Shown: positions 3,286-37,796 of the stretch, in pieces
How the letters are laid out: each line of letters opens with the position of its first letter
Numbering within the stretch: the first letter of the stretch is position 1
Assembly: GCA_963680875.1 (NCBI GenBank)
Contig: OY804575.1
Span: 27,695,034 to 27,759,033 of the forward strand
Source of the DNA: Bathymodiolus brooksi
Lineage: Eukaryota > Mollusca > Bivalvia > Mytilida > Modiolidae
Length of the DNA stretch: 64,000 nt
Direction of reading: 5' to 3'
Translations under genes and position numbers: made by a program
The notes under the pieces: generated by a model
What the model was told of the DNA's origin: nothing
Database searches by the model: none
What the model saw: only the letters and a program-made list of their open reading frames with translations

Positions 3286-3521
3286 TTATTTATAAATAGC
3301 TTCACATGTTCGCTTAAGTGGATGGAAAATTTCTTTCTTGTTTTCAAAATCGCACATATCGTGATATACAACTCTTTCATTACTGCAAACGGCATAATAC
3401 GGAGAACCTTCCCTTCCAACCCATGGATTAAGACCGTTCGGTAGTCCTTTACAGCTTGGATACCTCACATGACAAGGGATACAACCCATTGATGATCTGC
3501 AATGGTTTTCTTCGTAATCAC
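3286..3521 (-). CDS. Gene A exon 3: eight-Cys terminal domain
   Basis: 236 nt including TAA at 3288-3286. The first codon is completed across the junction to Cys, followed by DYEENHC. Then [37 protein letters not shown] and RTC. The motif GLxxGLNxW-x-x-REG is shared with genes B and C, and in modified form with D. An AATAAA signal overlaps the stop codon on this strand. Confidence 0.87.
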
Positions 3522-6500
3522 CTGCAAGTAACATATAATTCTTTGTGATATTTATCAGGAGAAAATATCATCACTGCATGTTCTTTCTTTTGATGTTTTT
3601 TTTTACGAAACTGTATTTATGTTGCATAACTTTCATTACGTCAAATGGAATTAATGGTCAATTATGTACAAGATAGTTGGATAGATAAACAGAGACTTTG
3701 ATTAAAAAATATCTTAAGCAGAAAGAACGGTTGTAAAAAAACACAAAAAACACAAAAAAGAAATGTAAGCATTATACTGGTTCACTGACCTTATCTTTTA
3801 TAATGCATATTCAGATATAAATTCAGTCGGTATAAGTACTTATCACAACTAAAGTTGTGAGTTCGAATCCCATTCAGGTGAGGTGTACTTGATGCAACAT
3901 TATGTGATAAAGTTCGTCGGTGACTTGCTGTAGGTCGGTGGTTTTCTCCGGATACTCCGGTTTCCTCCACCAATAAAACTGATGGCCAAGATATAACTGA
4001 AATATTGTTGATAGTGGCGTTAAACATCATAACCTTAACCCCATATAAATACTAATGAAATAACGTCTCCGAACCTACGAAAGCAGTTTATATATTGCTG
4101 ATAAGGTGTCGAAAAGTCTGGTGTAAGACTAAGTACTATGATTGCATTTTATATTTAACGATCTTACATTACGGAATATGTATCGATACATTTACTTACG
4201 TTACCATATACACGTACGATATATATAATCTCTAGCAATCTTACGTTACCATATACACGTACGATATATTTAATCTCTAGCAATCTTACGTTACCATATA
4301 CACGTACGATATATTTAATCTCTAGCAATCTTACGTTACCATATACACGTACGATATATTTAATCTCTAGCAATCTTACGTTACCATATGATATTTGTAT
4401 TTTCTACAATAGTACATTACCATATGCGATTAAGGTATTTCTAAAAAAAACGAAATAAAACAATTTATGCGGAATATATACATGTATATTCCCTAACAAT
4501 TTTGCGTGACCATATACGGTATATGCGCTGTTGTTGCTGTTCTACATCTCACAGTCACGATTATGTATTCCTTAGCAATCGTACGTTATTTTATACATGC
4601 AAATTATATGTATTCTTAACAATTGAATGTTAGTTTAACAAATACTATATTCTGTAGTCTGCTGTCAACATGGTCAGGATTGGCAATACAAATATAATGT
4701 TACATTGTAAATATTATTATTATTATTATATTGAATTTGAGTGTGTTTTTCTTTTATGTCTGGATTGGGATGTTATAAATATATTATTGTCTTCTCCCTC
4801 GAGAACAGTTTTCCTATTGTGTTGTCTGGTGAGGTATATTGCCCTCGCTATTGGCTCAGGCACTATACCACACCAGACAACACTATAGGAGAACAGTTCC
4901 CTCAGGAGTAGACAATAATAGAATAATATTCATTGACAATCTTGCATTGCAAATATACGATATTTATATTCCGAAACAGTCTTATTTTATCATATTTTAT
5001 CACATGTGCTATATATGAATTCTTAAAGCAATCAAATGTTACCTTATACGGTATGTGGTATTCCTTAACACATTATATTACCTTATACAGTATGTGAATT
5101 CCTTAACAAATTATATTACCTTATACAGTATGTGAATTCCTTGGCGAAGTTAAAACGATTCTCGTATCGCTATATAGAATGTTAGTTAACATTCTAATAA
5201 TAATATTTTGGAAAAGAAATACAGTCAAACCTGTCCATGCGGTCACCTCTATTAAGCAGTCATATGTATTAAAAGTCACAATTTTCTTGACCTGTCATAG
5301 AAATTTTCACCTGTCTTAAAAGACCAGCCACTTTTTCTTTGTCCCAAGGGTGACCTCTTAATACAGGTTTGACTGCACAGATCGTGGAAATATAATTTGA
5401 AAATAACAACAACGTCTACCATTACTTACATGGATCTTTAAAAACAATTCTGGTTCCACAATTAGCCTTCTCTAGATGAATACAACGTTTCTTGTCTTCA
5501 TCAAACAACAGTGGATATGGACATTCTTCTACACTGTTTAAAGTACAATCAATGTACTTAGAACAGCTGTCTTCATAGGCCATGAAGACAGACTTCTGTT
5601 GTTTACATCGGTCTTCTAAAGAAGAAGAAACTGGCATATCAAATTTCTTAGTACCTGAAAGAAAAATAATAAAAATCCATTTTCCGTATTGTCTCAATAT
5701 ATAATACAGCCAAACCTACCTTAAAGGGTACCTCTATATAAAAAATCACTGTCTGTAAAGGACAGTCTCAGTTTTCCCATTAATGAATAGTGCATATAAT
5801 TTTATCCTGTATATAAAGGCTATTAAAGGGCATATTTTCAGACTGCCTTTAGTGGCCTTTATATACAGGTTTGACTGTATGTACATGCTGTACATGTCTG
5901 ATCACAAATTTACATATTATATAAATAATCCAAATTACTGCTGTCAAAGAAAGACTTATTTATACATTGTGATAGGATTACAATGATGGGTGTTTAACGC
6001 CACTAATATTTTAGATATATCGTGGTGGTCATATTTATTGGCATGAACTGGTGATACTCAGAGATACTGTATCGCAGGGTTGTTTGGAATACATTTCGCC
6101 ACGGTCTGGATCAGACGGTGAATAACATTTAACATAAATGACAAATAGTTTAACAAAAGTCTAATTGACGTTTTATTATTTTATTTTTTTAGATATTTGA
6201 TAAAAAAAATATTCTTGTACACAATATCGCTAAGGAAACGTTGTTAATATAATTATACATCCGCTACAAAAACCGGAGAATATAATAATAAAAAAAAATC
6301 CGTTACTTTTGTGATCTTTTTTGTGGTTTTCTCTCTTAAAAGAAGTGTTGTGTTTCTAATAACGACAATATATTACAGCAACAAAAGAAGTGTTGTGTTT
6401 CTAATAACGACAATATATTACAGCAACAAAAGAAGTGTTGTGTTTCTAATAACGACAATATATTACAGCAACAAAAGAAGTGTTGTGTTTCTAATAACGA

Positions 6501-7117
6501 CAATATATTACAGCAACAAGTGAATCAAGTTGACTATCTATTTCATATAAAACATATGTGTCGATTACATTTCAGGAAGCAAAAACTTTCAAAAGAAATA
6601 TAAATATGAATATACATGTATAGGGTAATTTTGAAAACTCGACTCACTTTTGGCACAGGTAGAAGTGTTATATGATTTTACATCCACTGTATATTATCAT
6701 ACCGTAAAATATTTAATTTTTGGACACTAGTACCTAAAGTCTAGAGATCCAGACTAAAACAATGATATAATGGGAAAAGAACAAAGTGACGAAGGCAAAT
6801 TATTTTCTAAAAAAATGGTGAAGTCAAAGCAACCTTAATAAATCTATAAAAGAAATCTAGAGATAATTGGCTGAAATTATTGTTAGCTTACATTGATCTT
6901 GTTCTGACCCTTTACGTACACATGTCCGTACTTCCTCGTTGTAGACCATGTTTTTTGCGCAGTTGTATTTATGTTGTAAGGTTCCAAAGCACATGTAAAA
7001 CACACTACAATCTGCTGGATCACCTCTCCATTCAACGTTCTTAGTCCCATCACAAACTCTTGCAGACAAAACAGATGAAAGACACATCACAAAAGTCAAA
7101 ATTGACAAGTTATTCAT
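3286..7117 (-). CDS. Gene A: secreted three-domain chitin-binding protein, 228 aa
   Basis: Three exons on the minus strand: 7117-6892, 5654-5430 and 3521-3286. Joined, they give 687 nt, that is 228 residues plus TAA. The start at 7117 puts a typical signal peptide ([19 protein letters not shown]) just before the first Cys domain; the in-frame Met at 7180 would spoil it. Exons 1 and 2 encode peritrophin-A-type six-Cys domains, and exon 3 an eight-Cys domain shared with genes B, C and D. Donors are GTAAGC and GTAAGT, acceptors TTTCAG and TTGCAG; both junctions split a Cys codon as T|GT. The family binds chitin in extracellular matrices; binding here is inferred from domain type. Closest relative in the window is gene B, diverging head to head 2.6 kb away. 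Expression site (shell, byssus or gut) is not visible. Confidence 0.88.
3824..4037 (+). repeat. tRNA-headed SINE (RUDI/Meta type)
   Basis: In gene A intron 2. The plus strand reads a B-box-like gagttcgaatccc, then gaggtgtact, ggttttctccgg, cctccaccaataaaac, and the tail gatataactgaaatattgttg followed by gtggcgttaaac. The order, tRNA-like head then conserved central domain then tail, is that of the abundant mollusc SINE. The minus ORF at 3791-4030 is not a gene. Confidence 0.8.
4196..4390. repeat. 45-bp tandem repeat, about 4 copies
   Basis: A 45-bp unit containing gttaccatatacacgtacg recurs from about 4196 to 4390, in gene A intron 2. The period is divisible by three, so the minus strand gives a spurious 15-residue peptide repeat. 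Single diverged units continue on both sides (for example near 4420 and 4507), so this is the homogenised core of an older degenerate array. Confidence 0.88.
4783..4920. repeat. foldback (hairpin) MITE-like element
   Basis: Two arms of about 55 bp are inverted copies: tattattgtc at 4783 pairs with gacaataata ending at 4920, and gttgtctggtg at 4821-4831 pairs with caccagacaac at 4871-4881. The loop is about 25 bp. There is no ORF. It lies in gene A intron 2. Confidence 0.8.
5039..5142. repeat. 38-39-bp tandem repeat, about 3 copies
   Basis: The string accttata recurs at 5041, 5080 and 5118 with a shared gtatgtg...attcctt segment. Short imperfect array in gene A intron 2. Confidence 0.7.
5222..5375. 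mobile_element. pogo/Tc1-like MITE
   Basis: Perfect 12-bp terminal inverted repeats CAGTCAAACCTG (5222-5233) and CAGGTTTGACTG (5364-5375) enclose 130 bp without an ORF. A TA precedes the left end, as expected for TA-targeting Tc1/mariner relatives; the right flank is CA, so the duplication is imperfect. It sits 55 bp from exon 2 of gene A, in intron 2. Confidence 0.8.
5430..5654 (-). CDS. Gene A exon 2: chitin-binding domain 2
   Basis: 225 nt, a symmetric phase 1-1 exon. Cys pattern: [29 protein letters not shown], ending in DPC, whose Cys codon spans the next junction. The aromatic position after the second Cys (KYIDC) and the YPLLFD block match the second domain of gene B almost residue for residue. 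Acceptor TTTCTTTCAG. Confidence 0.87.
5708..5877. mobile_element. pogo/Tc1-like MITE
   Basis: Termini CAGCCAAACCT and AGGTTTGACTG are inverted repeats with one mismatch, flanked on both sides by TA. Same family as the element at 5222-5375. It lies in gene A intron 1, 53 bp from exon 2. No transposase is present. Confidence 0.8.
6338..6517. repeat. 45-bp tandem repeat, 4 copies
   Basis: The string aaaagaagtgttgtgtttct recurs at 6338, 6383, 6428 and 6473 with no visible differences between copies. It lies in gene A intron 1. The 70-aa ORF across it is an artefact. Confidence 0.92.
6892..7117 (-). CDS. Gene A exon 1: signal peptide and chitin-binding domain 1
   Basis: 226 nt, phase 1 at its end. 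Residues 1-19 are a hydrophobic signal peptide. The mature part shows the peritrophin-A spacing: VCDG, then [20 protein letters not shown] and QDQC. The F-Y-x-C core and preceding acidic residues are those expected of CBM14. The donor GTAAGC lies at 6891-6886. Confidence 0.88.
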
Positions 7118-8094
7118 GTTGTACGATGGGTATTGTACAGACAACTCACACAAACTAAAAAGACTGGATATGATTTCCAATATAAGATGTTAAAGATCCG
7201 CCTACCTTAATCACATAAATACCATCCCTAAAACAACCACGTCAATTCCAAATTTTAAAAGAATGTAACAACGTCTCTCCCAGATACCCCAGTATTTCAA
7301 TTGGATTTTTATCTTTTAATGAGTCTATTTTCTGTACTTTTACTTTTTAAAAATATCCTGTAATCTAGGGGATTAAGCAATTGGAGTTATTAAGTTGCTG
7401 ATTTAGATATTCACTTTTGACGGAGACTAGGAAGATTTTGTCATACCATTTTTTCACTTTTAGTTCAAATTTCCCATTGACATGTAAATGTATTCTGAGC
7501 TGTATAAAAGTCCCCCTCCCTAATGCATAGTAAACCCTAGCCGTTTTTTGCTATCCCGTTTAGGCTCTTTCGTTTTCTTGCTCCAAAGATGTTAAAATCA
7601 CGATGAGTGCCATGGATAAATCAAGAACGGGAAATGTTTACTGTTTGTAAGCACCTAGTGTCACTCATGGTTAACGGTGGTAGTTGGTGTTTTTCTATCC
7701 TCGTTACATTATACAAAAAACTTTAAACAGCAATAACCAAACTATTCCACCAATATAAACAAAACAAACAAGTACATCGCACATCTAAGTATTGACCCAA
7801 ACATTACTACAACATGTGAAGATAGTAATCCAAGCCCTTGATTGGCACATGTATAACATAGTGTTGGGGTTAAACCGGATAATGGGATATAAACATGTTA
7901 TAAATCTTAGCTTCCACTAAAAATGACCAAAACCATCACAGGAATGAACGACAACATTAACATAGACAATTAATTGAGATTGAATGCTAATTGTGCCTGT
8001 AGTCCTGTTGAAGTTCGGGTTTCAGTGGTTTGGGTCTTTTGATTTACCTTGTTTGTGACTATTCTGACTTGATGAATACACAAGAAATATTTTT
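7118..8094. other. intergenic, upstream of gene A
   Basis: Promoter side of gene A; only a weak TATA-like TATTTATG on the minus strand near 7221-7214. About 7540-7605 is a reverse-orientation relic of dispersed repeat Y (see 26560-26690). The rest shows no gene. Confidence 0.45.
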
Positions 8095-9724: not shown

Positions 9725-9950
9725 ATGAATACTCTGTCTGCTGTAATCTTGCTTGTGACTGTGGCATATTCTAAATCTGATAATATATGCGACGGGTCTA
9801 AGAAAATCAAATGGGTAGCCGATCCTTCTGATTGTAAAGTCTTTTATTTATGCTTTGGAAAATTACAGCATAAATATATATGTGAAGAAGATACAGTTTA
9901 TAATGAAAATGAACGAATGTGTGTAGAAAAGGGATCAACAGATGACAAAT
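9725..9950 (+). CDS. Gene B exon 1: signal peptide and chitin-binding domain 1
   Basis: 226 nt. The Cys spacing is NICDG, PSDCKVFYLCFG, HKYIC, RMC and DDKC, the last completed across the intron. Hydrophobic residues 4-15 form the signal core. The minus-strand ORF at 9807-9998 is a shadow. Confidence 0.88.
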
Positions 9951-12900
9951 GTAAGTATACATGTTTAATATAATTATATGCTTATATCTTCTACTCATAT
10001 CAAAAACGTCAAGGATTTACTGAAGATTTCTTACAATAGGTATGTTTCATTATTACGAATACAGAATTCCTAAATCAGAGGAATTTTCCAAGTAAAGGAA
10101 TTATTAAGATACTAAAATGTGTCACAGTGCCACAATATGAAACCATATCAACAATTATTCCTAAATGGTTTGCTGAATAGTTAAATACGACAATGTCTGC
10201 ATCTCTTTTGTATATACGAAATTTCATTTAATTTGGGAATTCATTGGCACAGCTCAGCGATAAAAGGTATTACAAACAACAACACTACAACACAAGGGTA
10301 AAATGAAATCAAAAGCTCGGACGATGTTGTATCCGAGATTGCAACCAGGTGCTCTGAAAGAGGCATCTTTTCCTATGCTATTAAGACTTCATTCACAATT
10401 CCATTTAATAAAATCCGAGATTGAAACCAAGATATATTTTGATATAAGGGTAATAACAAAATTACCGAACTCCGAACAATCTTACAAAGGGAAAGTCAAA
10501 ACTCATAATTATATAAACAGACAAAATCAGTCAACAACCGGAAAACTGTGAAAACCGTAATGACCCTGACTTGGTACAGGCATTTCTAAAGAAATGGTGG
10601 GTTGAATCAGATTTTAAGGCGCCAAACCTCCCGCTCTCATTACGGTTCAAAGATATGTTATTAACACCTTGACAGTTTAAAAATAGTCATTGATTTAATA
10701 TCTACTTTTTCTTAATAACAATAATATTGAATTAAGTGGTGTAATGCTACGAAAGACCAGAATGATCTTGGAGATTCAAGATTCGGAATTCGAAATTCAA
10801 TATCTGAAGCTAGAGATTCGAACTTCAATATTTGAAACAGTCAGTTACACAAGAAATTGATTACCGTATGTCATATGTTTATTAATTATATTTTTGTTTT
10901 GCTGTGTTTACTTATGCAGTAATTTGTTAAAGGGCATTTAAATGTTTAGAAGGAATCTGACTTTGTTGGCTTTCCTTCCATTGGTTATTAGGATACTGAA
11001 TTCCGAATGTCACATCTTTAATCTCGAATGATCCTTCTGGGCTTTCGCTTATAGTGCTGATCGAAAATCTGTGCATGCTTAGGTCATCAACAGGAACTGC
11101 TATATGATTTCTAGTACTTCAAATATCATGATTTGACCATGAACAAAATTAGAACACTACCGTTTTCCTACAATGATTTTTTTCTTTGTTTACAGGTACA
11201 AAAGAGAAACCACAGAGCCTTTCAATAAAGGACATTTGTAAAAGAGCAAGCTTCTTCCTCCTCCCACACGAGGACAGTTGTTCTAAATACATCGACTGTA
11301 CATCAAACACTGTAGAAGAATGCTATTATCCATTTTTGTTTGACAAAGAAATAAAACGTTGTGTACCACCAAACATAGCAGAGTGTGGATCAAGATCTGT
11401 TCCTAAAAATCCATGTAAGAATATAAGAATAATGTATAATTCATAGAATTAGGGGTTGTGGTTATGGTGCTTAACGCCACTTTCAACAATATTTCAGTTA
11501 TACCGGTCAGTTTTATTGGTGGAGGAACCCGGAGTACCCGATAAAACCACCAACCTGCCGCACGTCACTGACAATCTTGATCACATAATGATGTAATCGA
11601 GTACACCTCGCCATGAGCGAGATTCGAACTCACTTTAGTGATGATAGGCATTGATTGCACAGGTAGTTGTAAATCCAACTACAATACGATCATGACCATG
11701 ACGACCCCTTCTAATTCATGGCAACAATTGTTTTGAAAAATAATTTCCTTATGAATAATGGTAAACATGTTTCAATTTGGCAATGGTAAGATGCAAATTG
11801 AAGGAAGCAGTACTATGGATAACAAACCGAACAGACAAATGTAAATAATAGTAGCGTTCAACATTAAATCAAATACAGTGTAGACGTATCATAATAAGAT
11901 GTCGGAAATCACAACTTCCCACAAAAAACGGTAGTTAGACAAGGACAAACTGTCATTAAACTTTCGAGGGCGCATTTCGTACTTATGCTCTAAAACCATC
12001 CAAAAGTATTCCATATATTAGATACAGTGTTCTGATTGGTTATTAGTTTTGAGTACAAGATGAAAAATTGTACTTGAAATGTTTTGTGACCGTAAGACCA
12101 TGCATTTCTAAAGGGTAAACCTGTTTCACGTATTGTAACCGTTGTGGAATCTGCAGATATATCATGCAAATTGGGTCGAGAGGACCAAGACTTTAATAGT
12201 TACATTGTCAGCATGTCTGCAAACAATTGATATGTGGAAAAATGTAGTTTTCGTTTTCTAAGCTTTCATACCTCTCAAGTTTCGTTTCGTTGTTTTTTTG
12301 CATAGATTCTCTCTTTTTTGTTTGTATCGTACCTTATGTGTTATTTAATATTTATTAGATGTTCTCCAGGGTTTATTTTCAATCCTTTATTCGGCAAAAA
12401 AAACCCGTTTGTTTTATTTGCGTTTTAAAGAGTGCATGATGGAAATAAAACCCGCCGACATCTTTTTACCAGTAAACGATTTAAATGATTCGTATAAAAC
12501 TAATAAAACACGCCGACATCTTTTTACCAGTAAACGATTTAAATGATTCGTATAAAACTAATAAAACACGCCGACATCTTTTTACCAGTAAACGATTTAA
12601 ATGATTCGTATAAAACTAATAAAACACGCCGACATCTTTTTACCAGTAAACGTTTTAAATGATTCGTATAAAACTAATAAAACACGCCGACATCTTTTTA
12701 CCAGTAAACGATTTAAATGATTCGTATAAAACTAATAAAACACGCCGACATCTTTTTACCAGTAAACGATTTAAATGATTCGTATAAAACTAATAAAACC
12801 CGCCGACATCTTTTTACCAGTAAACGTTTTAAATGATTCGTATAAAACTAATAAAACACGCCGACATCTTTTTACCAGTAAACGATTTAAATGATTCGTA

Positions 12901-13669
12901 TAAAACTAATAAAACACGCCGACATCTTTTTACCAGTAAACGATTTAAATGATTCGTATAAAACTAATAAAACCCGCCGACATCTTTTTACCAGTAAACG
13001 ATTTAAATGATTCGTATAAAACTAATAAAACCCGCCGACATCTTTTTACCAGTAAACGTTTTAAATGATTCGTATAAAACTAATAAAACACGCCGACATC
13101 TTTTTACCAGTAAACGATTTAAATGATTCGTATAAAACTAATAAAACACGCCGACATCTTTTTACCAGTAAACGATTTAAATGATTCGTATAAAACTAAT
13201 AAAACACGCCGACATCTTTTTACCAGTAAACGATTTAAATGATTCGTATAAAACTAATAAAACACGCCGACATCTTTTTACCTGTAAACGATTTAAATGA
13301 TTCGTATAAAACTAATAAAACACGCCGACATCTTTTTACCAGTAAACGATTTAAATGATTCGTATAAAACTATGATAAAAGTTTTGAATTTCTTTTCAAA
13401 GGCAAGGTACAAAATGTAATTTAAATATTTTATTTTCAGGTGATTATGTGGAAAACGAGTGTAGATCGTCACAAGGATGTGTACCATGTTCTGCAAGATT
13501 TCCAAGTTGCGTAGGACTCACAAATGGTCTAAATTCATGGCCTGATAGGGAAGGAACTCCGTATTTTGTTGTTTGTAAGAATGAAAGAGTGGTTTATCAT
13601 GACCAGTGTGATTATGAACGCAAGAAGGAAATATTTCATCCAGAGAAGCTAGCTTGCGTATCGATGTAG
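9725..13669 (+). CDS. Gene B: secreted three-domain chitin-binding protein, 224 aa
   Basis: Three exons: 9725-9950, 11196-11414 and 13440-13669, 675 nt in total, 224 residues plus TAG. Exon 1 has exactly the length of gene A exon 1 (226 nt). Donors GTAAGT and GTAAGA, acceptors TTTACAG and TTTTCAG; both junctions split a Cys codon as T|GT. Signal peptide MNTLSAVILLVTVAYSKS, then two peritrophin-A-type domains and the eight-Cys terminal domain. It is the closest paralogue of gene A (shared DCxVFYxCFGxLQHKY and [11 protein letters not shown]), in opposite orientation. Intron 2 is largely a 58-bp minisatellite. A TATA box precedes and AATAAA follows. Chitin binding is inferred from the family; the tissue is unknown. 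Confidence 0.88.
10440..10620 (+). repeat. dispersed repeat Z, copy 1
   Basis: About 150 bp (taccgaactccgaacaatct ... aaccgtaatgaccctgactt) recurs in reverse orientation at 20360-20516 and 27067-27215 at roughly 90% identity or better by eye. Lies in gene B intron 1. The 82-aa ORF here and the 73-aa ORF at 27104-27325 share a C-terminal peptide only because of this repeat. Confidence 0.8.
11196..11414 (+). CDS. Gene B exon 2: chitin-binding domain 2
   Basis: 219 nt, phase 1-1. After the junction Cys come [41 protein letters not shown] and NPC. Two codons shorter than the gene A counterpart in the linker before the domain. Confidence 0.87.
11452..11708 (-). repeat. tRNA-headed SINE
   Basis: Reverse-orientation SINE in gene B intron 2: tail side gcttaacgccactttcaac first, then central gaggaacccggagtacc, then the head with cgagattcgaactcac (B box on the minus strand). 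About 257 bp, nearly full length. Confidence 0.85.
12453..13378. repeat. 58-bp minisatellite, 16 copies, in gene B intron 2
   Basis: The string cgccgacatctttttaccag recurs every 58 bp from 12453 to 13323, sixteen units. Units differ only at a few positions (cgattt or cgtttt; aaaaca or aaaacc; ccagt or cctgt). The array ends about 60 bp before the exon 3 acceptor at 13439. Confidence 0.95.
13440..13669 (+). CDS. Gene B exon 3: eight-Cys terminal domain
   Basis: 230 nt ending at TAG 13667-13669. Order: junction Cys, [48 protein letters not shown]. The last Cys lies four residues from the C-terminus. Confidence 0.88.
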
Positions 13670-17804: not shown

Positions 17805-18052
17805 TTATTTGGAGTGATATGAAGCTTTAACACAAACTCTTAATTTGGGATCAAATATTTGTTCCTCTGCATGTTGTTCATATGAGCATTTCCCCTGGAA
17901 AACTACCCTTTGTGATCTGCAGATTGCAAAGTAAGGGGATCCTTCTCGTCCTGACCATGCATTTAGTCCATCCGAAAGTCCTCGACATGATGGGAAGCGT
18001 ATGTCACATGGAACACAATGGGATTTCGTACAATGGTTCTCAGAATATTCAC
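17805..18052 (-). CDS. Gene C exon 3: eight-Cys terminal domain (no own ATG)
   Basis: 248 nt ending at TAA 17807-17805. The reading is CEYSENHC, SHCVPC, PSC, GLSDGLNAWSGREGSPYF, IC, QRVVFQGKC, RVC, ending in SYHSK. No internal stop. AATAAA overlaps the stop codon. The plus-strand 159-aa ORF at 17882-18361 runs antisense over it and is a shadow. Confidence 0.87.
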
Positions 18053-21000
18053 CTGAAATATTATATCAATGAAAATAAATTAATACAATTGTACTATTAT
18101 AATAACTATGTAATATTGATTTCAGCGGTCACTAATATGCGACAATATTTACTAATTATTGAATGTCATTGGTTTTATACAACAACGTCACAGTTAAAGG
18201 TTACCGAACTGGCCAGGTTATTTGCCTTTTTGACTGTTGTTCTATATATAATGCCAACAGAAACTTACATAAAGTATTATAATGCAGCATTTGCATTGAT
18301 TGTGGTATTCGTATCAATAATGTATCGCCATACAATGCATTTATTTGAAGACGTCACATGACTGCAAGATAAAAAAATACTTCAATAAAAGTTGGGTTTC
18401 GATGTCATATGAGCTCCGGATGGATTTTTATTTTGCTCATTTACATTACCGTCCTTTCCAGTAAATTTTTAATGTCAGAGTATGTCTTTTGTTCAATGTG
18501 AACTTGGTAAAAAAAAATATGTGCATTATTTACAGAGTTTTGGGAGTTTTCGGGCGTAGCATACTTATTTTATATACCTGAGCACTTGTTGTCGCTCCAT
18601 TTAGATTTTAGTTTCGGGAGTCAATTTGATTCCAATTTCAAAATTGTTTTAAACTGTCCGTTTAATCTTGTATATCATAATAAGTGCATTGTTGTTGTTT
18701 CTTATCTGTATTTGCTATTTTATTTTGATGTCCGATATATTGACAACAGTGCTTGTAATATCGCCATACCCGCATCAAATCATCTCTAGTAATATTGCCT
18801 TACCCGTATTTAATAATCTCTATGATATCCCTCCATCTGTGATAACGGCGTGGGGGTATTTGTATTTATCGTCACTTTCGGCAATTTTGAAGCTTTGTCG
18901 TGACAACCAGACTTGCTTGGGAGCAAATCCTTGGCAGATATAGCGAACTGGGTATGTCTCTTAACACGATATGTTAGTTATGGATGTAGTGTTTATCTGT
19001 TAGAAATCACAGTATCGCAGGCAAGTTGCCGCATTACACTCACTTTGAGGTATAAGTTATACTAGAGGCTAGTGGCCATATTGCACTCACTTTGAGGTAT
19101 AAGTTATACTAGAGGCTAGTGGCCATATTGCACTCACTTTGAGGTATAAGCTATACTAGAGGCTAGTGGCCATATTGCACTCACTTTGAGGTATTTGCTA
19201 TACCAGAGGCTAGTGTCCATCTTACACTCATTTTGAGGTACACTGATAAAAGGGTTCACAAATACATGGAGATGAAGAACAACAATGAAGTCTCGGTTCC
19301 TAAGCTTTGTTGCTTTTCACCGAGATTAGGATGTATTTTCTTTCATAATCATTTACATCGGCATCTTCAATTGTTAACTTTATTGGATATCTGATATTTT
19401 AGGGGTAAAATTTCAAGATATTGATCAAACTTACATGGGTCCATTGGTTCATATCTACTACCACACTTAACCAGTGCTGGCATTTCACATTTTCTGCTTT
19501 CTGTATTAAACAATTGAGGGTAGTGGCAATCCTTAAGTGATGCTGTAAGAGATGATGTACATTCGAAATACTGTGCACAGTTATTGGCAACTGCAAAAAC
19601 ACCAGAATTCTGACAAACGGGTACCCCGATTTTTCCAGGTAATGGTGTCGTTTCTATGATTTTCACTGGTAATGGCGTCGTTGCTAAGGTTTTCACTGGT
19701 AATGTCGTTGTTGCCATGGTTTTCACTGGTAATGGCATTATGGTGCTTTTTACATGTAATATTGTTGCGATTGTTGATTTCATTGCTTGCTGTATGGTAG
19801 TTAATAGATTGGTTTGTCTAACAGAACCTATAAGAAATGAATATATCAGTATCCATTACAAAATTGAAAGGACAAAAAGACAAACAATTGTCTGTAAACA
19901 CTACACTAAATATTGAGCAGAGCAACACGAACCTTATCAAAAACAGGGAATGAACTACTGTGCTACTGCAGGCTAAACAGTTCTTGATCCATCAATGGCA
20001 CCCGTCGTCTGACGAAATGTTTTCTATTCGTTGATTAGTTATAAACGAGGAAAGACAGAGAAACAACCATTAGAAGTTACAATAAAATTCAAGTACATAT
20101 CTGAGAAAAGGTTGGGAAAAAAAACACAATTCAGAGAAACAAAATAAAACAACATACAAATCAAAAGGCCAACTAGAATTCATATTACAAGCCAGGAGCG
20201 ATATTTGACATTCATATTAAATTATGACTAACATGATCTCATACCTGCGTTAAGAGACGAATAATGTTCATCACGGAAGACTTTACGGTGACTGAACATC
20301 AGTAAAAAGAGGTGTTATTTGACGTTTAATATTCGCATCAGATGGATTTTTTTAACATCCATATTCTTTAGAAATGCCTGTACCAAGTCAGGGTCATTAC
20401 GGTTTTCACAGTTTTCCGGTTGTTGACTGATTTTATTTGTTTATATACTTATGAGTTTTGACTTTCCCTTTGGAAGATTGTTCGGAGTTCGGTAATTTTA
20501 TTATTACCCTTATTTACTGTTAAATTTCAAGATAAGATTAAACCTATTTTACCATTTTTTGAAATTATGATAAATACATAAAGTGACATAAAAATGGTAA
20601 TATTATCTACGAAACTGCAACATGGCATGGTCAACATTAACCACCTCGTGTCTAGTTCAAGAAAGCAAGTAGAAGTTATCTCATATGAAAATGAATATAC
20701 AAATATAGTGCGAGTTTCTTTTGTTTTTAAACAACATGCATAAAGACAACTAGAAACTATTTTTATATGTTCCAATAACCTGGGAGCCATAAATAATACT
20801 AAGCTCCAGTTGATATCTGATTCAGACAAATATATGCCAAGATTTGCACTTTTCATTGTTAAAAGGCCATTGCTCTTACGCAAAATGAACATACGTATCT
20901 AAATGGCGTGCCATATAAGCTAGAAAGCTTAGAACACATATCAGAAATTATTAAGCAACAATTTTTTTCGTACATATATTATACTTACAGTGATCTAATG

Positions 21001-21208: not shown

Positions 21209-22716
21209 TATTCCAGAAGAATCAAAGTGGTCAGTACTATTTTCAAAGAAGACTGTCATAAAAGTATTTTAGGTATCAAATTGTGTTCAAAAGCACTAAT
21301 ATCTATTAAATATTATAAGTCCCAAAATTATATACTTAAATTTCATATCAGTTTCGAAATAATAGTTTATTTCTTGGTTTAAGCGGTATATATAGTAATA
21401 AACTGATTAGCTTGTGTAAAGGAACTCCTTATGTCCAAAATATCCCGACATCACAGGTATGATATTGGCTAAAACCTCACGAAATTAGGGTGGGTATTCA
21501 TAAGAGTATCAAAACAACAGGATTACCCCCGATAATTACTTAACAGTAATAGCAAAACAAATATTGTTCGTTTCAGCTACCCGTTATTCTGACCTTATTA
21601 CCACTCTACCTGACCAAAGATTTTATATTGCAGTAAAGAAAGTGAATGAAACTACTGGTAGGATACTTTGTAATCAATGTACCAGCAGAACCAGAACTAG
21701 ATATTTTTTTAAATCTTAGGAGCAGAATCAATTATTGCTCTTTTACTGAAGAACCTCTTTCTGATTTTGGGGAATATTAATATTTTACAGACTCGGATGA
21801 ACTCAATAAAAACGTATATGTCTAATTTAGTGCGTACGACACATTTCTGGAATAATCATCATCATCAATAATTAAACAGTTTTTGTCTGTTTAATTGGCA
21901 AATAAAATATGCTTAAACTAAACTGAAATATTGTTGAAATTAGGAAGACAACCTTAACAGATTTTGGCTATCCTGTTTATGCCCTTTTTGTTTACTGTTT
22001 AATTATTGATGATGATGATTATTCCAGAAATGTGTCGTACGCACTAAATTAGACATATACGTTTTTATTGAGTTCATCCGAGTCTGTAAAATATTAATAT
22101 TCCCCAAAATCAGAAAGAGGTTCTTCAGTAAAAGAGCAATAATTGATTCTGCTCCTAAGATTTAAAAAAATATCTAGTTCTGGTTCTGCTGGTACATTGA
22201 TTACAAAGTATCCTACCAGTAGTTTCATTTACTTTCTTTACTGCAATATAAAATCTTTGGTCAGGTAGAGTGGTAATAAGGTCAGAATAACGGGTAGCTG
22301 AAACGAACAATATTTGTTTTGCTATTACTGTTAAGTAATTATCGGGGGTAATCCTGTTGTTTTGATACTCTTATGAATACCCACCCTAATTTCGTGAGGT
22401 TTTAGCCAATATCATACCTGTGATGTCGGAATATTTTGGACATAAGGAGTTCCTTTATACAAGCTAATCAGTTTATTACTATATATACCGCTTAAACCAA
22501 GAAATAAACTATTATTTCGAAACTGATATGAAATTTAAGTATATAATTTTGAACACAATTTGATACCCAAAATACTTTTATGACAGTCTTCTTTGAAAAT
22601 AGTACTGACCACTTTGATTCTTCTGGAATAATGGCACAACTGAAAGTTCTGATAGTTTTAATGCTAAGCGTATATGAAGCCCAATCTTTGTGAGCAAATT
22701 CTGGGATGTCCTGGTT
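21123..22716. repeat. 1.6-kb palindrome (inverted duplication) over gene C exon 1 and promoter
   Basis: The left arm 21123-21879 (757 bp) is the reverse complement of the right arm 21995-22716 (722 bp), separated by 115 bp. The length difference is one 35-bp insertion/deletion (about 21288-21322, left arm only). Otherwise only occasional mismatches are seen, so identity is about 98% by eye. The left arm holds the start of gene C; the right arm holds a broken copy. The arms meet within a relic of dispersed repeat Y (tttctggaataatcatcatc). Confidence 0.93.
22612..22716 (+). pseudogene. truncated inverted copy of gene C exon 1
   Basis: In the right palindrome arm the plus strand repeats the gene C start region (ATG at about 22631). 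After the signal peptide the first mature Cys codon TGT is TGA, and homology stops at the breakpoint after 22716. Only about 26 codons of the exon are present, so no functional product is expected. The minus 88-aa ORF at 22492-22758 runs antisense. Confidence 0.8.
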
Positions 22717-29291: not shown

Positions 29292-31618
29292 TTATGGGTT
29301 TATACCCGAAAAGGTAAACGAGGTTGGTACATTCGACTTACGTTGTGCAAACACCTTACGCCTTTGGACAAAATTAGCAGTTTTCAAGGTTGCAAGTGGC
29401 AGTAGGCGAGACGCTTCAGGGACCCTACCGCGTCCACTTCTTCCAAGAAAATTCAATCGCTCAATTAGATCAGAATATTGGTGATTGTTTACCAACTTAC
29501 TACTACGCGTAGGGAGAACTTCTTTATGTTTGATTGCATCTGACGCCTTCACACCTAAAATGGAGTTTGGAAAATTGCTCTGGATTGTTTTAAAATTGAT
29601 CTCCTGAAACGGTTTATTTGTTTCTGCATTTCTAAGTGGGTCTGCATTTAATGCATTGCTTTGTTGGTTTCCTTGTGTTGTAGACGATTGTGATAAGGTA
29701 TGTCTATTGGTGTTTACAGTTCCACCGTGACTCTTTTGTTTTGATGAAAACTGGAAAGGCGTTAGGAATACTACCCGTGCAGGGCTCTTTACAATTCCTG
29801 TCTGTTTATTTTGAACATCCATTATATTATTCGAATTGGAATTATCAAAAGTATTCTGCATTTGTGTAACCACTCTCTCTATGTTGTCAATATGTTTGTT
29901 TGATAAAACATTTTTGTTAGGAATAACATCCATTGACAATACCTCAGTTGACTTTATGTCTTTAATGTTTACAGGAGGAGGTGTCACTCTTGCTTCTTTT
30001 ACTTGTTTTCCATTGTTTCCGTTGGTTATAGTATTTTTCTTCTCTAATTTGACTCCGTTTGTATTAGCAGTAACGCTACTATTTTGACCTTTTTGTTTAT
30101 ATATGTTTAGAACGTCTAAAAGTAAAGATACCAGTTGTGTTTTATTTTGTTCGGTGGATAGATAGTTGGTTCCTTTTCCAGAAGCTTTGTTATTTGTAAC
30201 GTGCAGGCCATTCTTTGAAATAGTTGATGCATGTTCTTTACTGATACTGTTGAAAATGGAATTTGGTAATAACTCTGTGTGATGATCTGGAAAACGTATT
30301 CGACTTCTTGACATCATTGCTGGATGTATTGGTTTTATATTTATCATTTCCGGTATATTGACTATAGGTTCGATGGTTGTTACGGGTTGAAAATATGGCA
30401 CGTCCGTTACAGGTTGGTTTGTTTGAACAAACGGTGCTTGGTGATTCTGCCTTTGGGTGATGAAAGGACCTGTGTTCGGAATGTTTTGCTCGACATGCTG
30501 TATTTTCTTTTCAATGTTATTTAGATGGTGTGAAACCATTATTGGTGTTATAGGCATTACATTTTTAATATTTGGTAGTGGTAGAATATCTATTCTTCTT
30601 CCCATATGTGAATAATCGGGTTGAATTTCTACGATTGGCTTGTTGGTAGCAGGTTTTAGTACACTTGGAATCTCAATAAGTGAGCGACTGTTAAAAGAAG
30701 CCCAACCATTTGGAACTACTCTTACTATACTCGACCGAGTGTTTAAAGGTTGTGTAATATTGTATGCATTTTGTAAAACCTCCCTATTGGGCATTGCATG
30801 CGTATTGCTTCCAATATTAACATTTGTTGACTTTGTTGCTTCTACCAGTATTGGAGTTTGTACCGTTCGAAACCCAAATATTTGAGGTGAAATTACATTT
30901 ATTCCAGAAAATCGAGGTGTCGTGTCTTTGTTATTTACAGAATTATTGTCTTGTTTGTTTGTCATTATTAAAATGGCCGACGGTGGAATTCGTAGATTCT
31001 GGTTCGTGACCTCTGGATATATTGGAACTTCTAACGTATGATTTTGAACATGGTGGTTTTGTAAAGGTCTTGGAAGTTGCAGAATGGGTTCTGGGTGTAA
31101 CATAGATGGTGATGGTTGATGGGCTGCAATCGTTTGGTTATGCATTCGTATTGGTGATGTTTGATTGGTGAACTGGGTTTGGTTTAACTGATGATATTCT
31201 TGTGTTTGATTTTGCTGTAGTATAATCTCTGTGTGTTGCATTTCCTTCGTCCCATTAGAGATAGTAGCGGTCCCGCTCAAATTCATCGAGTTTATTGTAG
31301 AGTTCGACTTACTGTTAACTGGTAGATTGACCAGTTGTAAACTTTGTAGAACTTTCACATTTGATTGTCTCGCCATTTGTGCCCTTTCTCTGTCCACACA
31401 TGACTGCAACTGTGTGCTGAACACCATATACTGACCAGGCTTTGATCCCTGACAACGCCCGTGAAAAATTACTCTCTCGTTTTGGCAGACGATGAAATAC
31501 GATGTCATTTCTCGGCCTCTCCATTGGTGAAGACCGTTCGGTAATCCTCGGCAAGTTGCATGTCGTATATGGCAAGGTAGACAATGGGACGATCGACATT
31601 GGTTTGTTAAATATTCAC
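29292..31618 (-). CDS. Gene D exon 3: Cys-rich domain and 701-residue Cys-free tail
   Basis: 2327 nt without a stop, far longer than chance allows in this AT-rich sequence. It begins CEYLTNQC, SHCLPC, ATC, GLPNGLHQWRGRE, VC, NERVIFHGRC and QSC. The REG-[ST] of genes A-C is REMTS here. The tail shows sequons (NQT, NHT, NIT, NKT), few aromatic residues and a basic end (RRKVFAQRK). The plus-strand ORFs at 29836-31434 and the minus ORF at 31315-31599 are shadows. Confidence 0.88.
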
Positions 31619-34600
31619 CTGAAATTAAATATATATACAAAATGTATATTCTGATACTAAAAGTAACTTTTATTAATGTGTAGCAATACATCTTGAAATT
31701 GGCATACCACCAGACCACACCAATTATAATGTATATATGATTTTAATTACCGGTACTTTGTAGTTTTCTTAATTGGCCACCATAATTTAGACTTACATAT
31801 GTAACCAAGGGCACCTGCTTTCATTGTCGTTTTTTTCTGGGACTTTGTCGTATTTTATTATTTTGGCTTATTCTAGATATGTTTATACTGTAGATATTTT
31901 TGTATTTATTTGTCTCATCATTCGTGTAGATGATAAATCTTCAATTATGTGTTGAATGTAAGAATAAACAAACAAAGAATCACATTTTATATGAAATACG
32001 ATATTATTGGGCAATTAGTCCTCGATGGTATCATTCTCCTATCACTCAGTACTTCGGCACAGACATGGTTCATTAGATATATGTATTATTTGAATGTACA
32101 GTTAGATAATGTAACTACTATTACAATTAAGGTTGATCTGCCTCAGACATAGATAATCGTAGCAGATTCTGGCTATCCTGTCTAAGCCCTTTGCTCTTCT
32201 TGCTCCCAAAGATATTATAATTGTTTTCTAATATTTTGCTTTTGAGCGTACTCGGTGAACGTTTTCCTGGAAGCGCTTTGACATGTGCTTCGTTTTTATA
32301 ACGACATCATTATGAGGAGAAATTTATTCATTATTTTAAATATTTTATAATTATTAATATTTCATTTGATATATATGTAAATTGAACTGTTTTTTTCAAT
32401 GTATAATTGCACTAATTTGTCGTTTTTTATATATTAATTATTCATAGAACAATGGCATATTATATAACTGGTACAATATTCCAAATTATTCTAAATAGCA
32501 TGTCAAAGACAAAACAAAGACAAAACAATTCCAATTTCTGAAAACTGTTGGTTTCTTTATAAAATATAATGATTGATCTTTTTTTTTAATGAAATATAAT
32601 GATTGATCATGATTAACAGTGTTGTGTTATTGTTTCTAAGTATTGTGATTATTGTTTAACTAGATATGGAAATAACAAAATTAGGTTATCGTAATGTGGT
32701 AAACTGTATAAGAACTAGTTTCGTAATCTTACAGTATTTTTGTTAATTGTCATAAGCTCAAATTTGATCGATATGTAGATACGTAGATATCTAACTTAGG
32801 TGCACAAGACGCATTTCTGGAATAATTATCATCAGGTACGCTCCAAATCAAAAGATAGGAAATGTACATTTGTACACAGATTTTTGTTGGGGGGAAATTA
32901 TGTTTCGAGTTTCGTGTTGTTGTTTTTTTGTGTATTTGTGTTGTAATTACAATGTCTGTTTATTTCAATATCTTTCCCGACTTGTGAAGTACTTTGTATT
33001 CGTTTAATATATGTATATATTTTCGTATACATGTATATACATATTAATTATGAAGAGAACGTTTAACAGTGATGGTCAACAATTCAACCAATATCCAAAA
33101 AAAAACCGAACAACCACACCTCGTTTAAAATAGCTGAACGTTACACAAAATACATGCCGAATAAAATCCAGGTTTGATAACAAATCGTCAGAAACATTAA
33201 CAGGAAAACTAAGTCTATTGAATAAACATGGAAATTCGACTTTCGCTACAACAAATTTTGTTCATTGAAAACGTCAGTGCAACCAATATATTACATCGAA
33301 AAGAAGATAAACAGTTGCACAGTTTTAACAGGTAATTGACAGGTAATGAAACACTAGACAAAGGTAATGTTGCATCAATTACAACTGATTTCATAACCTA
33401 TTGATAACAAAAAGTAAAAAGACCAGATTACATGCCACCTTTGTCATAAACTATTAATATTTCATATATGTACACCATAAGCAGTGGGATATATTTTTTT
33501 ATTTTCATATTACATTAATACATACAAATATCTTTAATTCCACGATGATAAAATCTTACATTAAGCCTTTCATCTCTAAAGAGAGGATGGTAACTGACTT
33601 ATGTTCTGGTACTCAATAACGAATAATATCGATTGCATTTTTAGATACCATGAAGGGTTACCAACAATGATTCACTTTTGATGTAGTATATATCATTTGT
33701 ACTTACAAGGATCCATTGGTTTCTGTCGAGTATTACATACAACTGCTAATGGTGAATCACAATCTTTTGTCAATTCATTGAATACTTTTGGATATGGACA
33801 TTCTCTAAGGTTCTCACCCCACCATTCTACCGAGTTTGTCTTGGAACAGTCGTAATATTGTGCACACTTTGTAGGGTGTGCATGTCTACCCACTGCTCCA
33901 GGTGGACAAAAGAACTTTGCAGACCATCGATCCATAGCGGCTGAAATTTCTGGAGAAGTCCGTGGTGGTGTAAGTTGGTGTTTCGAAGAAGGGGAGGTCA
34001 GTTCCAGTTTTTCAACATGGACTTTATGTTTATATTGTTGCAAACCTGAAATAGTTAGTAGATTATATTATACATGCGATTCATTTACCGTCTTAAATGT
34101 GCAGGAGTATTAAAACTTTTTCTGAACATTCAGAACTCAAACAAAATAAAAACATTTTATAATATGAATAGGATTGAAATTGAATTAAGCGACCATATCA
34201 ACCTCTCTCTATTTATATATAATACTCCTGCCACAGGAATCTATCATATGGGCTACAATTTGGACGAAAATACCCTAATGATGAAAAATTTTTTGTATCT
34301 AGTGTTTTATGTGTGAGTATAATTATGCAAATGAATTTATTGTTTACATTAAACACACATATATTTGCATAAATTTACTTGAATACATCGACATTTCATC
34401 TTCAGTGTGGGCCTGTGTCAAACATGTACTTGGTATAGTTTTCCCATTCAATTTACATAATTTTAATAATTATTTTTTTCATAAAGCTTTCAAAACTTGA
34501 GTTGTTTATGATATTTATTATGATAATCAATATATATGATGTGTTAGTTGTACTAAATCAATCACATTTTATAAATCAAGGATATTTATACATAAAAAAA

Positions 34601-37600
34601 AGCATTGTGCAGATTAAAATATTAATAAATTACAATCAATCGTGACTCGTCTTTGGTTGTTTTATTACCATATCTCTGTGTCTCATTTTATTAATTATTT
34701 TCATATTTTGTAATAATTAGCAAAAACATAAAAGACACACCCCAAACAATCTAGCTATAGAATTTACTTAAAACAATCTTTAACACACATAATATCTAAC
34801 AGGTCCAACCAATGAACATTCATGCACAGTTTTGCTTTTGTTGAAGTGAGTTCTGGTGTGGCGACCATCTTGAATTTCGACTGGAACAGCAAACATAAAT
34901 TTTGCAAACAACCACCCGAAATAACACAAAATTTGACAAAATAATACAAGACCTTGTTTAACACAGGACCACATTTCGAAAAATGACAATTTTCAAAGCA
35001 GATGGGTATCTCCAGTAATATGGTTTAATATACCGGTACTTTTAAATCAGGTGAGCCATACAGCCGGGGTCTTTGGAGCGTCTGATCTGGGTTTTTGTCT
35101 ATCAATTTGAAATATCAATCGCTATACGGAGTATTGAACGTTTGATAAGGTCGTCTATGACCTTTGACCTTGACTGACTTGAGGTCATTTTGATGGTAGC
35201 ATAGAATGATTTTGTAGAAGTAATAAATGTCTGACTTTCGCTTTAATAGTCAGAACCACTAACGATTTCTTTCAAACCTTTCATAAGGGTTGTTTCCCTT
35301 GAGTGAGTCAAAGCACTATAAAGTTGAGATTTGATGTCCCAAACATGCCCCACTATTTGATTCCTCTATGTTTATAACGTTTTCTGAGTTAGAGTAATAA
35401 CAAGAATTCAGATCAAAGGTCAATATCAATTTTGACCTCGAAGTCATTTTGAAAGTCAAATCTATCGATGATCATTCTTGAAAATCTCACGTGTTTACAA
35501 CTAACGGTTCGGAGATGTTCAAGTTGTGAAATAGCGAAAAGGTGTGGAATAACAACTAAAAAACATGTAGCGCTAATCCGCTGGCTAGCTGTAGCAAAAT
35601 TGAAAATTCCAAACATTTTATTAATAACACATTTTTTTTTATATTTCCCTTGCATGCTATATAGCATAATGTACCGGTATAAGAATCTAAATGTCATACC
35701 AATTGTTGATTGGTTGATTGTTGGTTGCTTAATGTTCAGGGGCAAATATTCCTAGCGTATTCAGGACGAGACAAGTTCAACAAAATCTAAAAATATTCAG
35801 AAATGAGGAGGGATAAGAATCAGAACAACGAGTTTTGACTGTCACTAGAAACTTTCAGGGATTTTGGTAGGGACTTAAACTTTAGCTGTTTATATCGTCT
35901 ATTATGTGTCCAATATTTTTTCGAAATCTACAAAAAGGTAATTTAATGTGCAGGAAGCGTTGTTCTGTCCAAGCATGTTTCCCACTATTGTCCAAGGTCA
36001 GGCTTTGTGCATTATGACCCGACAACCACACATCGAGAGGGCACCAACTATCCGCCACCTAGGAACGCGCTAGGCGGCTCTTTGACTGTTCAACTATGTT
36101 CCTGTCATCAGTACCCAGAAAATTGTCTTGAATAAACTGTTTATTCAGCTTTGTATAAAAAAAATATATCTCAGTTTTAAAAGAGTTCGTCAATCAAAAT
36201 GGCAAATAATCAACCATTTATAATTCATAAATAGATTTGGCTCTGTTAAATATGTTGATTCCGATTGGAATTATTTCAACGCATTTGTGCATTGGAAGCT
36301 TGTTGGCAACGTCAGACGGCTTGAATTTCCGACCAGTAATCAAAAGTGACAAACTGTGTAAAAAAAGGACTATGTCTTTTATACGAAATCAACTGAGGAA
36401 TGATAATTTACAAAATAATGTATTCATATTTAAATATTCCTGAGTCATGTTAATAACGTTTCCGTATTTTATATAGATTTAATGCATGTTAGATTGATGT
36501 GTTCTGTCCTAACTATTACAGTATGGCTATCATGTTCGTGTTATAGATATTTACATATCGAACTCTATAAATCACTTTGAATCATGAATTGAGCTTCTAA
36601 ATCATCAGCGAACGTGCTTTTGTAGAGAAGAAATCCTTGAAGAAAAATTGTCTAAAGCTGAGAATTGAGACACAATTTGTTTTCTGAGCTTTTGTAGTTT
36701 GAAGCGGACTTTAGATTTTATCTTCTTTTCGACATTTTAATGCAACCATCACTGAAATTGTATTTTCTCTATGCAAAATAGGTGGTGAAGTGTATACTAG
36801 ATACACCTTAATTATAAGTGTTTATGTTTGTCTGTAGGCTAGCCAAAGCAAGATCTGCATTCCAAAGATTACGACCCATTTGGAAGTCCAAACAATACAA
36901 ACGGAAGACAAAAATAAGGTTGTATAATAGCAATGTAAAATCTGTCTTACTGTATGGAAGTGAATACTGGAGAGTTACAAATTCAGATATGAGGGCGCTG
37001 TCAAGTTTCCACCACAGTTGCCTAAGACAAATTTGTAAAATTTTCTGGCCAATCCGTATTTCAAATGAAAACCTACTAGAAATGACAAATTCCACATGCG
37101 TCCTCAAAGAAATACAACAGAGGCGTTTCAGATGGCTAGGGCATGTTCTCAGGATGCCAGTATCCAATATAACCAGGATAGCCCTTAGATGGACACCCCA
37201 GGGAGAGAGACCAACAGGCAGACCAAAGATCACCTGGCGCAGAACTATTGAATCCGAACTGAAAGAGCTTGACATGACCTGGGAAGAAGCTGAAACAAAG
37301 GCTAAAGATAGAACTGGATGGCGTAATCTTGTGGCGACCTTATTCTCCGACGGGAGCGAAGAGGATAGGTAGGTAGGTATGTTTGTCTGTGGCTTTCTGT
37401 GTGTACTCTGGTTTTCTCCACCAATAAAGCGAACCACCGCGATATTACCAAAATATTGTTGAAGGTGGCGTTAAGTAATAAATCTGTAGAACGTGTACTT
37501 TTAAATTTAAACGTAATTTCAGTTAAAATAAACTTACTGATCATTGAACAAGTGTCATTGATAGATCCCTTGATAACACAAATTCGTCTTTCTTGATTCC

Positions 37601-37796
37601 ATGCCATCCCTGGGGCACAGAAAAGAGTCCAATCCTTCTTAGGACTGCATAAATGGTACTTTGAACAGTCTTCGAAATCTGGACGAAATGCTTGGCCCAA
37701 AACATTATCACAAACGTTTACAGTTTGTGTTCTACAGATATCGAGCCGTAAACCCAAAATGAAAATAACAATAATTTCCTTAAAATATATCTTCAT
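29292..37796 (-). CDS. Gene D: large secreted chitin-binding protein with long low-complexity tail, 974 aa
   Basis: Three exons: 37796-37538, 34045-33707 and 31618-29292, 2925 nt, 974 residues plus TAA. Residues 1-25 are a signal peptide (MKIYFKEIIVIFILGL...). Domain 1 is in exon 1, domain 2 in exon 2 (to residue 199), and the terminal Cys-rich domain at 200-273. Residues 274-974 contain no Cys and are rich in Asn, Gln, Thr, Ser, Pro and Ile with many N-glycosylation sequons; the last 50 or so residues are basic. Exon order and phases match genes A-C, so D is a paralogue that gained a long extension of the last exon. The junction 1/2 codon is A|GT (Ser), unlike the usual T|GT. Such a mix of chitin-binding domains and a disordered tail suggests a matrix scaffold; this is inference. 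Confidence 0.86.
31619..33706. other. gene D intron 2: repeat relics
   Basis: Pieces of dispersed repeat Y at about 32150-32275 (reverse) and 32800-32880 (forward), and a retroelement 3'-end fragment at 33065-33105 (cagtgatggtcaacaattca). The rest is AT-rich intron. Confidence 0.5.
33707..34045 (-). CDS. Gene D exon 2: domain 2
   Basis: 339 nt, phase 1-1. A basic/Pro-Ser linker of about 40 residues (LQQYKHKVHV ... PPRTSPEIS) precedes FFCPPGAVG, TKCAQYYDC, RECPYPKVF, KDC, VVCNTR and PMDPC. The open frame starts at a TTG (34043), not an ATG, consistent with an internal exon. Confidence 0.86.
34046..36822. other. gene D intron 1, left part
   Basis: No exon seen. About 35705-35790 (ggttgattgttggttgctta ... 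tattcaggacgagac) is a fragment of the same LINE 3' tail found at 63268-63740. Several palindromic AT-rich ORFs here have no support. Confidence 0.45.
36836..37377 (+). mobile_element. 5'-truncated RTE-like LINE insertion
   Basis: The plus strand encodes an uninterrupted C-terminal reverse-transcriptase tail: ARSAFQRLRPIWKS, VLLYGSEYWR, HHSCLRQICKIFWP, RRFRWLGHVLRM, GRPKITWRRTIE and a final DRTGWRNLVATL. It ends in a short ggta tandem tail. The 13-bp sequence tatgtttgtctgt stands on both sides (36823-36835 and 37378-37390), a target-site duplication. The clade (RTE or similar) is from family resemblance. It lies antisense in gene D intron 1 and interrupts SINE-derived sequence. The opposing minus ORF at 36808-37437 is a shadow. 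Confidence 0.85.
37391..37480 (+). repeat. SINE tail fragment
   Basis: ctctggttttctccaccaat, cgatattaccaaaatattgt and gtggcgttaag are the distal part of the SINE in plus orientation; the LINE at 36836-37377 inserted at or next to its truncated end. Confidence 0.7.
37538..37796 (-). CDS. Gene D exon 1: signal peptide and domain 1
   Basis: 259 nt. Mature part: NVCDNVLGQAF, FEDCSKYHLC, TLFCAPGMAWNQERRIC, NDTC, then SMI before the donor GTAAGT at 37537. The sixth Cys is three codons upstream of the junction, unlike in A-C. The frame that reads on into the intron (to 37302) is not coding. Confidence 0.86.

Follow-up and report, generated by a model that had tools for sequence, protein, structure and literature searches.

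Four clustered genes of the bivalve Bathymodiolus brooksi belong to an old molluscan family whose third domain has a predicted CBM14 fold with altered cysteines

Secreted proteins made of three CBM14 (peritrophin-A, PF01607) domains, all of them canonical, are known in arthropods as CPAP3/obstructor proteins. In molluscs, a secreted protein with three domains of this fold is EHEP, a 25 kDa polyphenol-binding protein of the sea hare Aplysia kurodai (PDB 8IN3, 8IN6), whose disulfides join cysteines 1-3, 2-6 and 4-5. EHEP has three CBM14 domains; domains of this kind often bind chitin, but EHEP and Der p 23 share the fold without chitin binding (PMC10619976). The shell matrix proteins Pif/BMSP combine CBM14 with poorly scoring 'CBM_14-like' domains (PMC11291548). 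Here we describe four genes, A to D, in a stretch of 64,000 nucleotides of Bathymodiolus brooksi (Mollusca, Bivalvia, Mytilida, Modiolidae; assembly GCA_963680875.1, contig OY804575.1, positions 27,695,034 to 27,759,033 of the forward strand), referred to as the window. Each gene encodes a hydrophobic leader, two CBM14 domains (D1 and D2) and a third domain (D3) with its own set of cysteines. We consider it rather probable that these clustered genes belong to an old family of molluscs whose products are secreted, rich in disulfides and able to bind glycans, and in which D3 would be a CBM14 fold with exchanged disulfides.

The gene models, built on open frames, splice signals and homologues, give four complete genes of three exons each between positions 3286 and 37796, the stop of A and the start of D, a span that covers A to D exactly. 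B lies on the plus strand and the other three on the minus strand:

6892-7117, minus: gene A exon 1, hydrophobic leader and D1 (CBM14); Pfam match and gene model; ends in phase 1 inside a cysteine codon
5430-5654, minus: gene A exon 2, D2 (CBM14); Pfam match and gene model
3286-3521, minus: gene A exon 3, D3 (eight-cysteine domain) and stop; motifs and gene model, no Pfam match
9725-9950, plus: gene B exon 1, hydrophobic leader and D1 (CBM14); CBM14 match and gene model
11196-11414, plus: gene B exon 2, D2; gene model, CBM14 by its six-cysteine pattern
13440-13669, plus: gene B exon 3, D3 (eight-cysteine domain) and stop; motifs and gene model, no Pfam match
20989-21208, minus: gene C exon 1, hydrophobic leader and D1 (CBM14); Pfam match and gene model
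19435-19827, minus: gene C exon 2, linker containing Thr and Pro, and D2 (CBM14); Pfam match and gene model
17805-18052, minus: gene C exon 3, D3 (eight-cysteine domain) and stop; motifs and gene model, no Pfam match
37538-37796, minus: gene D exon 1, hydrophobic leader and D1 (CBM14); Pfam match and gene model
33707-34045, minus: gene D exon 2, linker and D2 (CBM14); Pfam match and gene model
29292-31618, minus: gene D exon 3, D3, a 701-residue tail and stop; gene model, no CBM_14 match

GT donors and AG acceptors are present throughout, and all eight introns are in phase 1, a cysteine codon being divided into T and GT by both introns in A, B and C and by intron 2 only in D. The predicted proteins have 228, 224, 286 and 974 residues, respectively; A and B share 57% identity and the remaining five pairs 32-38% (first 290 residues). 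On hydropathy, the leaders of all four reach a best 11-residue Kyte-Doolittle mean of 2.3-2.9, and this, together with the cysteine content, indicates that the proteins are probably secreted. The D1 and D2 exons of A, C and D were all above the curated CBM_14 cut-off of Pfam (22.1 bits; six of the six scanned, a count that does not include exons 1 and 2 of B), and exon 1 of B matched CBM14 in a separate scan. The tail that follows D3 in gene D is free of cysteine and richest in N, S, T, I and Q.

Several repeats accompany these genes. The start codon of C and its upstream sequence lie within an inverted duplication (21123-21292 against 22547-22716, 98%), with further arms at 21323-21880 and 21994-22551 (99%). 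Intron 2 of B holds 16 copies of a 58-base repeat at 12444-13372 (98% matches), and intron 1 of D an open frame (36818-37372) that, by eye, resembles a piece of a retrotransposon reverse transcriptase.

D1 and D2 are thus ordinary members of PF01607, and it is in D3 that the proteins depart from EHEP, which has the canonical six cysteines in all three domains. The motifs GC/HC, PC, GLxxGLxxW, RE and RV[VI][YF] occur in the four window copies of D3, as does an aromatic pair two residues before a cysteine; their alignment has 24 invariant columns, and identity to the D3 of A is 67, 52 and 44% for the other three. Exon 3 carries seven cysteines, and the eighth, first in order, comes from the codon split by intron 2, the full spacing being C-x6-C-x4/5-C-x2-C-x6-C-x21-C-x10-C-x15/17-C. 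With a search pattern in which the spacings of 2 and 6 residues were fixed and the others could vary within set limits, this arrangement was found in 25 of 29 sequences (4/4 in the window and 21/25 homologues). The two long spacings that the pattern left free were 21 and 10 in all 25, and the first spacing was 6 in 23 of them and 9 in two. The four exceptions are homologues P0008, which lacks the start of D3, P0016, whose end has diverged, P0019, which has no D2 and hence no first cysteine, and P0025, which has no D3.

A broader comparison across molluscs, in which rows had to cover at least 85% of the model and identical rows were counted once (reducing D3 from 237 to 222 and CBM14 from 273 to 252, a set that may contain D1 domains; orthologues and isoforms counted apart), showed the eight cysteines retained in 200 of the 222 unique copies of D3. 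Sixteen rows lack the first or the last cysteine only, many of them at alignment ends, and one apparent loss of the third is a shifted cysteine (CxC). The Pfam scan gave no CBM_14 match at E<=1 for any of the four window D3 exons, and in a wider set 3 of 19 D3 sequences matched at E<=10, the best at E 0.002, which is under the curated cut-off by the scale of the window scan. D3 is a distinct domain without a name in Pfam or NCBIfam. A sequence-only reading of this DNA had proposed a cluster of four genes with two ordinary peritrophin-A domains followed by a shared eight-cysteine domain, the full architecture being assigned to no named family. The cluster, the nature of D1 and D2 and the distinctness of D3 are all borne out, and the count of eight cysteines stands for the spliced product but not for exon 3 by itself.

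Compared with the six cysteines (C1 to C6) of CBM14, D3 keeps C1, C3, C4 and C5, lacks C2 and C6, and has four additional cysteines at its N-terminus. Structure prediction, which the sequence-only reading had named as a check, gives D3 a predicted CBM14 fold in spite of these changes, with the two small antiparallel sheets, of three and two strands, that characterise CBM14. An unrelated fold is disfavoured by the model of D3 alone and by comparison with solved structures, for which the VIA-align structure list is a re-examination of Foldseek's own matches. The cysteines absent from D3 are those that form the 2-6 bond in EHEP. In D3, the C2-C6 bond would have gone and a four-cysteine N-terminal clasp would have been added, most likely paired first with fourth and second with third, while the bonds C1-C3 and C4-C5 would have been retained. 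The clasp appears to start at the end of the preceding CBM14, the first cysteine of D3 lying at the end of the D2 linker; it may fix D3 to D2, and D2-D3 would therefore probably be one rigid unit.

The family extends well beyond Bathymodiolus. The closest homologue found for gene A, from Mytilus edulis, has 66% identity, and three-domain homologues occur in Mytilus edulis, Potamilus, Sinanodonta, Saccostrea, Solemya and Tegillarca, as well as in the gastropod Gigantopelta and in Haliotis, Babylonia, Batillaria and Pomacea; some of the models are incomplete at one end (P0004, P0006 and P0014 in D1, P0008 and P0016 in D3). Every organism-labelled match was a mollusc, in searches that detect only relatives with short exact shared words and may miss other phyla. 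Some homologues, one of them with 242 residues in a contig of 954 bases, would be spliced sequence if their introns were like those of A-D, which suggests that they are expressed. A tree of 103 of 259 D2-D3 units (every third unit of the C4 array described below; midpoint root) places the 22 three-domain proteins, including A-D, in one exclusive clade with a support of 0.923. The neighbour of A is from Mytilus, and those of D are one database sequence and then Gigantopelta and Haliotis (support 0.65 and 0.80); by eye, P0019 of Mytilus coruscus looks like an orthologue of C. The family with a leader, two CBM14 domains and D3 is therefore old and present in bivalves and gastropods, and the lineage-specific origin supposed by the sequence-only reading is rejected. 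The same reading held that orthologues of identical layout across molluscs, with a third domain scoring as plain CBM14, would speak against it: such orthologues exist, but D3 does not score in that way. Its further statement, one D3 per gene and in no other order, applies to the window but not to the rest of the genome.

Searching the 2.0 Gb genome with the D3 of A returned at least 69 matches at E<=10 (72 candidates scored), and arrays were read from 200 kb of genomic sequence at six places. The largest lies on contig C4 (43323464-43434642), where 42 CBM14 and 42 D3 exons alternate strictly on one strand, one stray D1-type match being left out of the order. Simple phase-1 splice criteria were passed by 83 of the 84 exons, with the accepted donor off its usual place in a few. 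In a stricter control, the acceptor AG was found at one fixed offset in 40/42 CBM14 and 41/42 D3 exons (a mean of 1.2 exons at each of 59 other offsets), and the donor GT in 38/42 and 35/42 (means elsewhere of 1.8 and 2.8); over the 18 bases that lead up to the usual donor position, every D3 exon is free of in-frame stops. The joined exons give 6,214 residues without a stop, an absence that tests only the flanks, the interiors having been picked as open. For this joining, 17 of the 84 exons needed a splice position other than the default one or have a weak donor; of the 42 D3 donors, three are poor. On the same strand upstream lie a frame with a TSP1 (thrombospondin type 1) domain, 0.3 kb away, and one with part of an IgGFc-binding domain, 3.6 kb away. 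With one repeat of this array as query, there was no C4 match beyond 43.323-43.434 Mb among the 57 matches listed (69 candidates scored). From its exons, the array is probably one giant gene with a single transcript, and some of its units are nearly identical, probably through recent duplication.

Predicted proteins of other molluscs agree independently with this array. One from Mytilus edulis combines PF17517 and TSP_1 with seven CBM14-D3 pairs, and between 4 and 18 pairs occur in protein models from Mytilus, Mya, Sinanodonta, oysters, Potamilus, Argopecten, Pinctada, Solemya, Gigantopelta and Babylonia. A second Bathymodiolus array (C2:147351594-147381058) has 11 CBM14 exons and 13 of D3 type, among which three are weak (15-19 bits). 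It contains three consecutive degenerate D3-like domains, and protein models from Mytilus, Argopecten, Pinctada and Saccostrea show a similar run; in the tree, several units of Mytilus P0036, a protein likened to the C2 array by domain order and not by alignment, pair one by one with units of Solemya. Across the proteins examined (orthologues and isoforms counted apart), 259 of 270 D3 matches directly follow a D2-type CBM14; the remaining 11 have none within the 25 preceding residues, and one of these is preceded by a D1-type domain. Taken with the arrays, this pairing makes the CBM14-D3 pair, and not D3 alone, appear to be the evolutionary unit. Another type of small gene, with D3 and a further CBM14 in one exon, occurs at C17:85.93-86.19 Mb, C5:98.33 Mb and C12:25.51 Mb; C17 has eight D3 matches, and the sequence was examined at one of these places. 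As a separate observation, a lone D3 exon with its own stop, similar by eye to that of gene D, stands at C19:49077061-49077282, and profiles found no CBM14 exon in the 10 kb examined around it.

The two CBM14 domains and D3 would give each protein several contacts with chitin or a related glycan, and it is most likely, as judged from their sequences, that A-D are secreted chitin- or glycan-binding matrix proteins; a role in the extracellular matrix is plausible. With the 701-residue tail of D, and with the 42 D2-D3 units of C4, the same unit may have come to cross-link a chitinous matrix outside the cell, perhaps the organic matrix of the shell. We tentatively extend this to a pan-molluscan super-module, the CBM14-D3 pair, used singly in small three-domain proteins and 42-fold in a giant secreted protein (at least 6,200 repeat residues behind IgGFc-binding and TSP1 domains), where clasp-locked units could act as a rigid multivalent cross-linker of chitin or other glycans in the shell or another matrix. 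The D3 hairpin has an N-glycosylation sequon in 37/42 units of C4, 3/13 of C2 and 0/4 of A-D, a difference hinting that D3 may be a glycosylated spacer in the C4 protein.

Some described proteins bear on this proposal. In the shell of Haliotis laevigata, a low-abundance table lists a protein 'similar to IgGFc-binding protein' with 23 chitin-bd_II domains (PMC6003135, Table 2). It shares with the C4 gene this name and its many chitin-binding domains, and is likened to it by description, the part of the article considered here mentioning no D3-type domain; by this analogy a link of the C4 gene to the shell is suggested, and gut, mucus or foot are possible. A 'chitin binding peritrophin-A' gene of the scaly-foot snail, also likened by description, is reported as the highest among genes raised in the scale-secreting epithelium (PMC7142155). 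Pif/BMSP are compared with D3 by description only, and they carry a VWA domain, whereas the Pfam scan found none in 10 of the 12 exon frames of A-D (all except exons 1 and 2 of B), nor in homologue P0001. In the parts of the open-licence PMC literature covered, neither D3 nor the three-domain layout is described, which is not proof of absence from print, and the portions of PMC7333891 and PMC5105077 included hold nothing on D3.

Several observations weigh against the reading of A-D as glycan-binding proteins with a rearranged CBM14 fold. It is built on sequence and predicted structure. The fold scores of D3 are modest, the best Foldseek match of its model alone being weak (E 0.11), and we infer the disulfide pairing rather than take it from the model coordinates. 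In profile comparison D3 matched D2 with 27% probability and D1 with 6%, against 95% for D2 with D1, and the D3 profile did not match the D1 of gene A; with comparisons this weak, sequence by itself would not establish a descent of D3 from CBM14. Among PDB sequences, too, the D3 profile had no match. One D3 lacks its second and fourth cysteines together, which opposes the proposed 1-4/2-3 pairing, and two lack only the third or the fourth; in CBM14, C6 is missing without C2 in 11 of 252 rows, partly at alignment ends, so that the joint loss of the two is asymmetrical. The sequon in the hairpin of C4 might block binding there. Finally, EHEP binds tannins but does not attach to chitin (PMC10619976), and among solved three-domain proteins it is the closest in sequence.

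This last point could be taken further, with A-D as digestive polyphenol binders in which a three-domain pocket captures algal tannins and chitin is not the ligand. EHEP is indeed the top Foldseek match of the whole-protein model (8in6, 8in3; E 7.8e-8) and the best match among PDB sequences (E 1.5e-5; 9.3e-9 with a profile), but the overlay shows a different overall arrangement (TM-score 0.28-0.30, root-mean-square deviation 19 A) and the main sequence match spans D1-D2, the third domain of EHEP being a canonical six-cysteine CBM14. A bivalve, moreover, is no grazer of brown algae, and a D2-D3 array combined with TSP1 and IgGFc domains does not have the look of a digestive protein, so that we regard this explanation as unlikely. 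Scarcely more credit can be given to secreted immune lectins or antimicrobial proteins of the tachycitin kind, binding chitin or microbial glycans and diversifying against microbes through their copies, an idea to which the CBM14 fold common to tachycitin, the several window copies and the further group of small D3 genes on C17 lend themselves. The conservation of all eight cysteines in 200 of 222 copies does not suggest an arms race, and the long N/S/T-rich tail and the 42-fold repetition would suit structural proteins better. That D3 is merely a decaying CBM14 under weak constraint and of no special role, as its missing C2 and C6 and its poor CBM_14 scores might imply, is very improbable in view of that same conservation and of the invariant spacings of 21 and 10 residues in the 25 pattern matches.

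Outside the cluster, the window also contains about 121 copies of a 39-base tandem repeat at 44808-49528, where both strands have very long open frames that probably arise from the repeat as a by-product, its period being a multiple of three; about 66 copies of a 28-base repeat (39188-41039) adjoin ten copies of a 41-base repeat (38666-39076).

As to the family itself, D3 is a conserved domain that has no Pfam name and occurs in many proteins of molluscs annotated as 'uncharacterized' or 'chitin-binding type-2', and a profile of it would permit a re-reading of shell, gut, foot and mucus proteomes. In the repeat gene on C4 there is a concrete candidate for a protein that cross-links the chitin scaffold of molluscs. 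Should the fold predicted here and the proposed pairing be true, D3 would also be a clear case of a small disulfide-rich domain that swapped its set of disulfides while its fold was kept.

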